NCBI RefSeq assembly: GCF_014332515.1
Contig: NZ_VFSD01000004.1
Coordinates: 186,001 to 250,000, forward strand
Origin: Pontibacter beigongshangensis
GTDB taxonomy: Bacteria > Bacteroidota > Bacteroidia > Cytophagales > Hymenobacteraceae
DNA: 64,000 nt
Direction: 5' to 3'
In this document: one piece after another, positions 10,561 through 61,039 of the stretch
How the letters are laid out: each line of letters starts with the position of its first letter
How positions within the stretch are numbered: the first letter of the stretch is position 1
The notes under the pieces: generated by a model
Databases searched by the model: none
What the model was told of the DNA's origin: nothing
Seen by the model: the letters and a program-made list of their open reading frames with translations, nothing else
Position numbers and translations under genes: made by a program

Positions 10561-10604
10561 ATTATTCTAATGAAAACAGGCCTCCGGAGCTTTCTGCCGC
10601 CGCC
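10561..10604 (-). repeat. CTCCGGAG/AT-tail intergenic repeat, copy 5
   Basis: Reverse-strand copy: ATTATTCTAATGAAAA, GGCCTCCGGAGC, then a degenerate GCCGCCGCC tract. It abuts the 3' end of the response regulator gene. Confidence 0.82.
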
Positions 10605-23498: not shown

Positions 23499-23682
23499 AA
23501 TTATTCTAATCAAAATGGCCCTCCGGAGCTAATCTTGTAGAAAAAACAATGAAGCCGCTAAGGTACATCGCAAAGGCACTTTTCTGTACTTTAAGCAACG
23601 AGTAAAAACCTGCTGCATATCATCTAAAGGCACTTTTTATTTTTTCATTACAAGATTAGCTCCGGAGGCTTTAGCTGCTGCA
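23499..23682. repeat. Composite inverted-repeat element, core type II
   Basis: The left arm is a reverse CTCCGGAG/AT-tail element (23499-23539), the right arm a forward one (23649-23682). A 19-base perfect inverted repeat (23521-23539 with 23649-23667) extends past the palindrome through AGCTAATCTTGTA. The core of about 110 bases holds two AAAGGCACTTTT words and differs from the core of the elements at 33.6 and 60.8 kb. Confidence 0.8.
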
Positions 23683-24066: not shown

Positions 24067-24618
24067 ATGAGCACAAAGTATAAAATCCGGGATAATCAGA
24101 AGTTATATTTCCTGACTTTTGCGGTAGTGGCCTGGGTGGATGTTTTTTCCCGAAAAGAGCATAAAGACATTTTCCTGGACAGCCTCCGGTACTGTCAGCA
24201 GCACAAAGGCCTGGAATTATTTGCCTTTTGCCTCATGACGAACCATGTTCATCTGATTGCGGGCGTTAAAGAAGGAGGAAATTTGTCTGCTGTACTGCGC
24301 GACTTAAAGAAGTTCACGTCTTATGCCATCACCAAAGCCATAGAGGAGCACCCGCAGGAAAGCCGCCGAGACTGGATGCTGTGGATTTTCAGGAAGCATG
24401 GCGAGCGCAACAGCAACAACACCAGGTACCAGTTCTGGCAGCAGGACAACCACCCGATTGAACTAAGCAGCAACGCACTGCTAGACCAAAAGTTAGAGTA
24501 CCTGCATCAAAACCCCGTGCAGGCGGGCATTTGCTATACCGCTGAAGAATATGTTTACAGTAGTGCCGGACAGTACGCCAACCTGGAAACGCTGCTGCCG
24601 GTAACGCTATTGACATAA
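24067..24618 (+). CDS. REP-associated tyrosine transposase (RAYT, Y1/HUH family)
   Basis: Single-strand HUH endonuclease related to the IS200/IS605 transposase, domesticated to move or maintain REP sequences. A 183-residue intact protein: beta-strand start (LYFLTFAVVAWVDVF), HUH histidines H60 and H62 (MTNHVHLI), and catalytic Tyr145 in the family signature EYLHQNPVQAGI, followed by YVYSSAGQY. No terminal inverted repeats of an insertion sequence surround it; instead a REP pair begins 10 bases after its stop. It lies inside the spacer between the uronyl hydrolase and peptidase genes. Confidence 0.93.
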   Translation: MSTKYKIRDNQKLYFLTFAVVAWVDVFSRKEHKDIFLDSLRYCQQHKGLELFAFCLMTNHVHLIAGVKEGGNLSAVLRDLKKFTSYAITKAIEEHPQESRRDWMLWIFRKHGERNSNNTRYQFWQQDNHPIELSSNALLDQKLEYLHQNPVQAGICYTAEEYVYSSAGQYANLETLLPVTLLT

Positions 24619-31743: not shown

Positions 31744-31800
31744 ATAAAATTGATTTAGTGACAAATGAAATTATAAGCGATGACCTGATGAGCAGCTAGG

Positions 31801-31849
31801 GCAGCGCAGCAGCGGAAACCTCCGGAGGGACGTTTTCATTAGAATAATT
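31801..31849 (+). repeat. CTCCGGAG/AT-tail intergenic repeat
   Basis: GCAGCGCAGCAGC, AACCTCCGGAGGGAC, then TTTTCATTAGAATAATT. It lies between two leftward PUL genes, in the opposite orientation to them. Confidence 0.88.
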
Positions 31850-32074
31850 GGAGTGTATACATGACTATCCTGCTACCTATTGGTTCCCCCTGCCTTAGCT
31901 GCTGCTCTTTCCGGTGTTCTTACCCTGTTTTGTTGCATAATAGAGAAGCTGAGCGCTCACGGCTGATGCCGGGCCATAACTTACCTTGCAAAGCTTAGAA
32001 TGGCCTGCAGTGTTCTCTTTAAGAAGCGGACAGCGGAGATGGCTGATTGCTTTTGGCCATCTGCTGCAAAAATG

Positions 32075-33394: not shown

Positions 33395-33437
33395 AATTAT
33401 TCTAATGAAAATGCCCCTCCGGAGCTTGCTGCTGCTT
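33395..33437 (-). repeat. CTCCGGAG/AT-tail intergenic repeat
   Basis: Reverse copy, near consensus: AATTATTCTAATGAAAA, GCCCCTCCGGAGC, TTGCTGCTGCTT. It lies 88 bases upstream of the DUF4861 gene. Confidence 0.9.
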
Positions 33438-33537
33438 AAAAGGACAGAAGACGCAGGACAGAAGGCTCTCCTTTACATATTAAGACCTGTGCGTGAGGAC
33501 TTATGCTCGGCCTGCACTGATAATTTATCTCCTCATC

Positions 33538-33642: not shown

Positions 33643-33911
33643 AATTATGCTAATGAAAATGTCCCTCCGGAGCTCATCTTGCAGGGATAAACAAGGCCTC
33701 TGTTTCCTTAATTTTGCGCTGGTGCGCGCTTGCCGCTCGTACTTTCCTATCAAGCATTTCCAGAAGGGGTCAAAGCAGCTTGTTAGTAGATCCATTCTTT
33801 TATGCTGTAACCTTAAGGAACAGTTGGTACGAGCGGCAAGCGCGCACCAGCGACCTGCTTTTTCCTACAAGATGAGCTCCGGAGGGGCTGCTCCTACTGC
33901 TGCTGCTCCTG
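33643..33911. repeat. Composite nested inverted-repeat element, core type I, copy A
   Basis: The outer arms are CTCCGGAG elements facing each other, with a 19-base perfect inverted repeat (33663-33681 with 33868-33886). Inside, a 26-base perfect inverted repeat (33717-33742 with 33827-33852) has the GTGCG...CGCTCGTAC look of a REP. The central core of about 85 bases is unique sequence. The whole core matches the element at 60778-61039 in inverted orientation, at most positions. Confidence 0.9.
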
Positions 33912-47519: not shown

Positions 47520-47607
47520 CAGAGAGTGAGGGATTCGAACCCTCGATACCCTTTTGAGGTATACACACTTTCCAGGCGTGCTCCTTCAACCACTCGGACA
47601 ACTCTCT
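47520..47607 (-). tRNA. tRNA-Ser (anticodon GGA)
   Basis: An 88-base class II tRNA on the reverse strand. Seven-pair acceptor stem (47601-47607 with 47521-47527) and discriminator G at 47520. The anticodon GGA reads from 47573 to 47571. The T arm has GGTTCGAATCC, and there is a long variable arm (GTATACC...GGGTATC). CCA is not encoded. Confidence 0.97.
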
Positions 47608-60433: not shown

Positions 60434-60777
60434 TGCACCTGATTAATTATAAATATCCGGTCCTGCTTATACAGCTGGATGTGTAGATGGCAGCAACCGA
60501 ATGTCAAATTTACAATTATCAGGGAATTTTAATGAAATTATTATTTTATTGGCTCGAGTTTGTGGATGTTTTGGTAGCAAGGCAAGGTTTATTTATTAGC
60601 CAGCAAGGAATGGCCTGCGCTTTAACAATTTCCCGGAAAAACAATTTTTGCTTTTCGCCCACAGGTTCTGTTAAGAAGATGGATGCGATCGGGCATCAAT
60701 TAAGCGCGAACACGGATGTTGCGGACATTTGCTGAACCGCCACCCTGGCAAGGGCTGTGAGCGCTGAGACAAACCAG
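60434..60777. other. Upstream region of glucosidase gene
   Basis: No gene beyond short frames without protein character. No TAnnTTTG match. Ends at the composite element. Confidence 0.3.
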
Positions 60778-61039
60778 ATTATTTGAATGAAAACAGGCCT
60801 CCGGAGCTTATCTTGCTGGAAAAAGCAGGTCGCTGGTGCGAGCTTGCCGCTTGGATCAAGTGTTCCTTCAGGCTACAGCTTAAAAGAATTGACCCATAAC
60901 ACGCTGCTTTGCCCCTTTCTGGAAAGGCTTGATAGGAAAGTACGAGCGGCAAGCGCGCATCAGCGCAAAATTCAGGAAATAGAAGCCTTATTTATCCGTA
61001 CAAGTTTAGCTCCGGAGGCATTTGCTGCTGCTGCTGCTG
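60778..61039. repeat. Composite nested inverted-repeat element, core type I, copy B
   Basis: Left arm ATTATTTGAATGAAAA, GGCCTCCGGAGCTTATCTTG (60778-60817); right arm ACAAGTTTAGCTCCGGAGG plus (GCT)n (61000-61039). The inner REP-like pair is 60831-60856 and 60940-60965, with the left inner arm partly decayed. Its core matches the element at 33643-33911 read in reverse. Short frames run through it but are not genes. Confidence 0.9.

Follow-up and report, generated by a model that had tools for sequence, protein, structure and literature searches.

A nested palindrome of Pontibacter beigongshangensis read as a gene-less insert at the axis of a dispersed host repeat

The feature at 33643-33911 of the 64-kb stretch of Pontibacter beigongshangensis DNA analyzed here (the window) consists of three nested layers, namely a host repeat, an insert, and an inner REP-like pair. 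On the forward strand, it starts with the left (AT) half of the host repeat (33643-33664, AATTATGCTAATGAAAATGTCC, recognized with the repeat consensus of 198 copies), followed by a first 8-bp copy of a putative target duplication, CTCCGGAG (33665-33672, read as such on the basis of a register scan in other genomes), and a gene-less, presumably mobile insert of 204 bp (33673-33876, plus strand). The insert carries terminal inverted repeats, with the A end (CTCATCTTGCAGGGATAA) at 33673-33690 on the plus strand and the B end at 33859-33876 on the minus strand. Between them lie a REP-like inner arm with the tag CGCTGG and a hairpin (33717-33742, plus strand), a single-copy spacer that can be aligned in the insert profile (33743-33826, plus strand), and the inverted copy of the arm (33827-33852, minus strand). 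The second 8-bp copy of the duplication (33877-33884) and the right, CTG-rich half of the host repeat (33885-33911, plus strand) complete the structure. The span given in the first-pass annotation has both its limits inside the host repeat and does not coincide with the mobile part.

The inner arms are identical in 26 of 26 positions and 84 nt apart. The outer arms share 19 bases (CCCTCCGGAGCTCATCTTG) without mismatch at 33663-33681 and 33868-33886, within a 31-nt pair of 87% identity. Both perfect pairs had been described in the first-pass annotation of the window and were confirmed. The single strand of the composite was predicted to fold into one long hairpin (-73.9 kcal/mol, z -10.9), as that annotation had proposed to check, and none of 200 shuffled sequences folded equally well. 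Since the window moreover contains 12 occurrences of GCTCCGGAGG, compared with an expectation of 0.08, the nested palindrome is not a product of chance. The only frame in the open reading frame listing that covers the insert is an uninterrupted one of 107 codons with its start inside the host repeat. We take it as a chance frame, so that the earlier statement that the element codes for no protein is retained. An Rfam search gave no match over the insert, and the one match in the window at the gathering score was a tRNA (47520-47607).

The host repeat, AATTATTCTAATGAAAATGGCCCTCCGGAGGCTTTTTTGCTGCTG, contains the outer CTCCGGAG arms of the composite. Inspection of all CTCCGGAG occurrences with their flanks indicated that most of them are unpaired and form the centres of one repeat with the consensus AATTATTCTAATGAAAATGG-CC-CTCCGGAG-GCTTTTTTGCTGCTGCTG (198 copies). 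The composite is an interrupted version of this repeat, in the order AT half, CTCCGGAG, insert, CTCCGGAG, and CTG half. The host repeat is about 45 bp long, with examples in the window at 10582, 14929, 16664, 31820, 33417, 49909, and 57699. Undivided copies are paralogous empty sites, and one of them lies 0.25 kb upstream of the composite (33395-33440, plus strand, end approximate). The left half together with the palindrome was found, with at most two mismatches, at 815 places in the own genome (414 + 401, a count that includes copies split by inserts), and the backward pattern at none. Among 50 genomes of the genus, the repeat was present in two, the own genome and that of Pontibacter qinzhouensis (G029, 62 + 46). 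In 385 kb sampled from the latter (L189-L208), 123 relatives of the host repeat were identified, mostly with the centre TTCCGAAG or TTCCAAAG; their right end is conserved as CAAGGGT and has no CTG repeats.

A role of the host repeat as a plain intrinsic terminator was considered and rejected, because its enrichment between convergent genes is mild and its RNA fold is not notable. The z scores were -0.5, 0.35, and -0.34 for three sequences, and -1.25 for the G029 form. The gene context was determined with a crude gene caller for 226 copies, of which 12 fell inside called genes and one was left unclassified; 71 of the 213 intergenic copies lie between convergent genes, compared with an expectation of 18.7%.

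The window contains two further inserts. One of them (60807-61009, minus strand) is flanked by duplications at 60799-60806 and 61010-61017 and by an AT half at 60777-60798. The segment 60799-61017 (C34:246798-247023, minus) matches the insert of 33643-33911 on the other strand with 87% identity, in line with the first-pass annotation, which had recognized the same element in opposite orientation at 60.8 kb. The other (23529-23659) has the same ends as 33673-33876 and a different core; its duplications are at 23521-23528 and 23660-23667, and its AT half is at 23499-23520. The search for further members that had been suggested was productive. In the whole genome (5.75 Mb), 23 places, the query included, align over at least 187 bp, and 39 inserts were catalogued with their flanks. 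The common ends, CTNATCTTGTAGGGAAAA, matched 63 times with at most two mismatches, compared with one match for the backward pattern. A profile search of the genome also identified insert copies outside the host repeat. Short inserts of 92-115 bp differ in what they retain of the REP arms, as independent deletions would leave them.

In the own genome, a target duplication cannot be separated from a terminal repeat because the centre of the host repeat is itself palindromic. For 29 inserts, 9 pairs of 8-bp boxes were exact direct repeats and 9 exact inverted repeats; among the 21 pairs that are not perfectly palindromic, there was one of each. The inverted one of these is that of L041. In a short insert (C1:321163-321235), CTCCGAGG is directly repeated.

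Inserts of other genomes were more informative in this respect. Direct repeats of 8 bp were exact in 11 of 50 inserts and had at most one mismatch in 18 of 50, with the reservation that many of these inserts come from one genome (G033) with a common target and represent different places rather than independent kinds of target. The register scan of the same 50 inserts found no exact repeats of 5, 6, 7, 10, or 11 bp, and two of 9 bp (L262, L263); with at most one mismatch, there were two each of 7 and 9 bp. When the right-hand boxes were re-dealt 2000 times, the mean number of matches was 2.1 and the largest 6. Of the 49 pairs that are not perfectly palindromic, 10 matched directly and 3 in inverted orientation. 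The pairs CCTTGGAC/CCTTGGAC and CTCCAAGG/CTCCAAGG are direct repeats that would have 8 and 6 mismatches, respectively, if read as inverted. In 32 of the 50 inserts, no 8-bp direct repeat was present, whether exact or near-exact, and at some of these sites decay or rearrangement is evident, as in L271 and L083. In L083 and L306 (both G035) and in L271 (G033), the 8-bp boxes are inverted and not direct, and the flanks of L271 form one long inverted repeat.

The ends are more widely distributed than the host repeat. With at most two mismatches, CTNATCTTGTAGGGAAAA was present in 30 of 50 genomes of the genus, where low counts do not exceed the backward control. A clear excess over the backward pattern was found in the own genome (G000, 63 to 1) and in G033 (75 to 0), G047 (15 to 1), G041 (13 to 1), G016 (11 to 0), G035 (10 to 0), and G034 (7 to 1). 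In G033, the host repeat had no match, and the inserts lie in the middle of CCCCCTTTGAAGGGGG-like palindromes. Of the 204 genomes in the family, 23 contained CTNATCTTGTAGGGAAAA with at most one mismatch. In a genome of another genus (G193, L399-L409), the count was 71 to 0, and the cores are inverted repeats of the GGAGTTCTACTCC type. A search of a wide genome collection with the 18-base end pattern gave 14 places in many phyla, of which only one, in Pontibacter qinzhouensis (L021), looks related. The exact pattern was also found in three viral contigs, matches that we read as chance occurrences in coding sequence.

A length of 204 bp without a convincing frame, CTNATCTTGTAGGGAAAA at both ends, and a duplication peak at 8 bp together identify 33673-33876, as far as comparison of sequences can do so, as a miniature inverted-repeat element (MITE) that lies at the axis of a palindrome and has duplicated 8 bp of its target. 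This miniature transposon keeps its rule of insertion, the axis of a palindrome, and swaps the host repeat between species.

The inner part of the insert has the layout of a REPIN, with two inverted REPs of tag and hairpin around a spacer. The commoner REP variant of the family folds as tag plus hairpin, and the window's own REP arm folds no better than its shuffles (z 0.34). The genome contains six Y1_Tnp matches. One of them is a RAYT-like Y1 gene at C23:262 kb, with an inverted pair of CGCTGGCGCGAGCTTGCAGCTCGTGC in front of it and a single copy behind it; the inner arm of the window shares 22 of 26 bases with this sequence. Positions 43-178 of the insert profile match the REP pair and spacer upstream of the gene (C23:261716-261861, E 6.6e-10). 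Another of the six matches, a RAYT-like Y1 transposase gene, lies in the window itself (24067-24618, plus strand) and is at most a candidate for acting on the composite. Downstream of it is a different REP (GCGCTGGCGCAAGTGTGGAGCG...), and upstream are an insert and host repeats.

We compared 13 cores from several genomes by blastn at E 0.01 with the RAYT flanks of the genome that contains the window. Matches were found for 8, and not for the other 5. The window's own core is one of these 5, with no match at this threshold to the five flanks examined (of the six Y1_Tnp places). Among 260 shuffled cores, there were 4 matches, as implied by the counting of the script, which printed 3. In the own genome, shell and REP pair were copied together; in other genomes, a constant shell encloses a different core.

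These observations bear on the possibility that a RAYT, a Y1 HUH enzyme, moves the insert via its inner REP pair, with the terminal and direct repeats as a mere side effect of the sites that it uses. The tag and hairpin layout of the inner arms, their resemblance to the repeats beside a RAYT gene, the number of Y1_Tnp matches, and the 8 of 13 cargoes with similarity to RAYT flanks would all agree with this explanation. We nevertheless consider it improbable, because the ends are constant while the REP pairs vary between inserts, because some inserts have no REP pair (that at 23521 in the window and L275 in G013), and because 8-bp direct repeats are present, whereas transposition of the IS200/IS605 type is not known to make a target duplication.

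In a composite that moved as one unit, the orientation of the insert relative to the halves of the host repeat would be constant. It could be assigned for 30 of the 39 catalogued inserts; six were unassignable, two had neither flank, and one had AT halves on both sides. The A end adjoins the AT half in 9 cases and the B end in 21, two of which are doubtful by eye (L054, with two B-like ends, and L058, where the other flank also resembles an AT half). With both orientations of the insert present in the host repeat, the composite does not behave as a single unit, and the mobile unit is 33673-33876 with its 8-bp target duplication.

The first-pass annotation had concluded that the whole composite of about 265 bp, including the outer CTCCGGAG arms, moved as one unit, and at first sight the two copies in the window, which share core and arms, agree with this. 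Four CCTCTTGAGG boxes that travel with the B end could be cited in its favor as well. Movement of the whole composite is, however, contradicted by the two orientations, by the hundreds of undivided copies of the host repeat, and by the occurrence of the same ends in other palindromes with non-palindromic direct repeats elsewhere, and we regard it as very improbable. Composite palindromes read from sequence alone can mimic one unit even though they arise by insertion into a repeat.

Two observations on the flanks deserve mention. The odd CCTCTTGAGG box is common to the B ends of L040, L043, L045, and L054, on either side of the host repeat. As a centre, it is nearly absent from solo repeats (1 of 303, and that one is itself an insert), and the boxes at these four ends are not explained by simple target duplication. 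In L102 (C1:462350), L221 (C17:80625), and, judged by eye, L058 (C6:41989), two facing AT halves are separated by a 10-bp remnant or an insert, an arrangement that recombination between two repeats might produce.

The earlier proposal that the element is mobile gained support from a related genome, G015, in which the genes flanking the composite are conserved with 79% and 82% identity. The aligned blocks are separated by 47 bp in G015, compared with about 655 bp in the own genome, where the composite is accompanied by a separate solo repeat and by simple sequence. This absence dates the addition after the split of the two lineages. G015 likewise lacks the solo repeat that lies in the next intergenic stretch carrying one (31775-32032). 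The suggested check for an empty site was therefore successful in that G015 lacks the addition, but the empty site is not a precise one, since G015 has no host repeat there either. An old, immobile regulatory or RNA element under selection, such as a bidirectional terminator, could account for the strong hairpin and for the excess of host repeats between convergent genes (71/213 vs 18.7%), but is extremely improbable given the lack of an Rfam match over the insert, its absence from the orthologous site of G015, the variation of core and target among inserts, and the restriction of the host repeat to 2 of 50 genomes.

A gene-less MITE needs a helper in trans, as the first-pass annotation had already argued, and this argument was upheld. 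Draft assemblies break at repeats that are longer than the word size. In G047, nine contig ends lie 94-144 bp inside ends that carry the inverted repeat of the insert. These are of two kinds, the first in four contigs (C65, C75, C45, C62) and the second in five (C27, C71, C72, C55, C29). In the first kind, the reading frame extends to the final base, with the translation ...GFQKTKKQPLPGAKLLGEALVKLQNMVEGWRLFETQQNNTNFSLQD-stop, and the TAG stop codon is formed by the outermost bases of the inverted repeat. The peptide at this end is also given as ...PLPGAKLLGEALVKLQNMVEGWRLFETQQNNTNFSLQD-stop. In G010, an element of 614 bp combines relatives of both G047 ends with an N-terminal frame, MWAATGFSVALSEIHGRN... 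Its core was at one point regarded as a captured gene fragment; this idea was dropped, and the element was then taken for an internal deletion of the helper.

Transposases of the IS4 family have a catalytic DDE triad and a Y-(2)R-(3)E-(6)K motif. A 52-residue C-terminal peptide from G040 matched the NCBIfam model IS4_3 at positions 340-391 of 405 with an E value of 1.3e-4, a score far below the 160-bit cut-off for the whole protein. The G047 peptide matched the same model at positions 375-405 (E 0.06), and tblastn aligned a peptide to the C-terminus of a Haliscomenobacter transposase annotated as IS4 (13 of 34 aligned residues, E 0.8). The single NCBIfam match of the G010 C-terminal peptide was to a methionine synthase (E 0.056), not to IS4. 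Pfam gave nothing for the candidate helper peptides, and the PDB nothing for two of them. The N-terminal peptide matched nothing, with no relative in plasmids; a C-terminal peptide had none in phages, and two peptide searches found no relative in viral contigs. In plasmids, the 52-residue peptide matched only NAD(P) transhydrogenase-like places, with E values of 0.2 or worse. Pairs of ends that are spaced by 0.6-4 kb and flanked by a target duplication were absent from 1.98 Mb of sequence (backward control 1). No complete copy of a transposase-encoding element was found among the genomes examined, and no autonomous one in the 1.98 Mb. Taken together, the peptides suggest that a longer element with the ends of the insert, which encodes transposase ends resembling the IS4 family, is likely the helper.

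Very probably, then, the composite is a MITE at the palindrome axis of a host repeat, served in trans by a helper that is probably IS4-like, and carrying a REP pair as passenger. The insert, about 204 bp long and bounded by terminal inverted repeats of 18 bp (CTNATCTTGTAGGGAAAA), would be a non-autonomous DNA transposon. A trans-acting transposase would excise or copy it and place it where short palindromes have their axis of symmetry, with a duplication of 8 bp of the target, as comparison rather than experiment shows. The targets in the own genome are mostly the CTCCGGAG centres of the very abundant host repeat, which is why two facing CTCCGGAG elements frame the insert. For the transposase, an IS4 (Tn5-like) enzyme is probable, and it may be encoded by the longer element with the same ends of which pieces were found in other Pontibacter genomes. 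The REP pair, a REPIN of the type found beside RAYT genes, would ride along as a passenger. The locus shows that short bacterial repeats are nested three deep here and that the layers can be separated by comparison.

A more far-reaching scenario, which we put forward as speculative and rather doubtful, has two engines. An IS4-type shell would home to the axis of any abundant palindromic repeat, its core would be a landing or docking place for the REPINs of RAYTs, and two unrelated transposases would exchange and spread shell and core, each carrying the other to new genomes. How a transposase finds palindromes, and whether REP pairs and MITEs help each other to spread, are questions that the nested locus makes directly testable in a harmless environmental genus.

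Among the matches listed in a search of the open-licence literature, outside which most subscription journals fall, there was no description of the insert or the host repeat. Three pieces of the G033 target palindrome were also compared with the literature, and none of the matches listed concerned bacterial repeats. With respect to the parts of the sources available, the nearest case in print to the insert is ISRm22 of Sinorhizobium meliloti, an IS4 family element with nine copies in REPs, an insertion point at the axis of palindromy, and direct repeats of 6 bp (PMC1525189). The same source, in the part available, states that Tn5-like enzymes of the IS4 family prefer palindromic targets (PMC1525189). 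According to this account, ISRm22 and the insert have in common an IS4-like transposase (for the insert, a probable one), the axis of a palindromic dispersed repeat as the target, and direct repeats. Unlike ISRm22, which is described there as an autonomous IS with 6-bp repeats, the insert is gene-less, has 8-bp repeats, uses several unrelated target palindromes, and carries a REP pair as passenger. IS1397, ISKpn1, IS621, and other REP-targeting ISs likewise use the palindromes of repeats as targets, but in the excerpts available IS1397, ISKpn1, and IS621 belong to other IS families and, unlike the insert, are autonomous.

Like MITEs, the insert is short and gene-less, with terminal inverted repeats, a target duplication, and a probable helper with the same ends; unlike them, it has a replaceable core, usually made of other repeats, and a palindrome axis as its target. 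The inner part resembles REPINs with their RAYTs, which are said to move them (PMC3116915, as far as the available portion goes), in that two inverted REPs similar to those beside a RAYT of the own genome surround a spacer. It differs from the REPINs described in that portion in being enclosed by a shell with inverted ends and direct repeats of its own.
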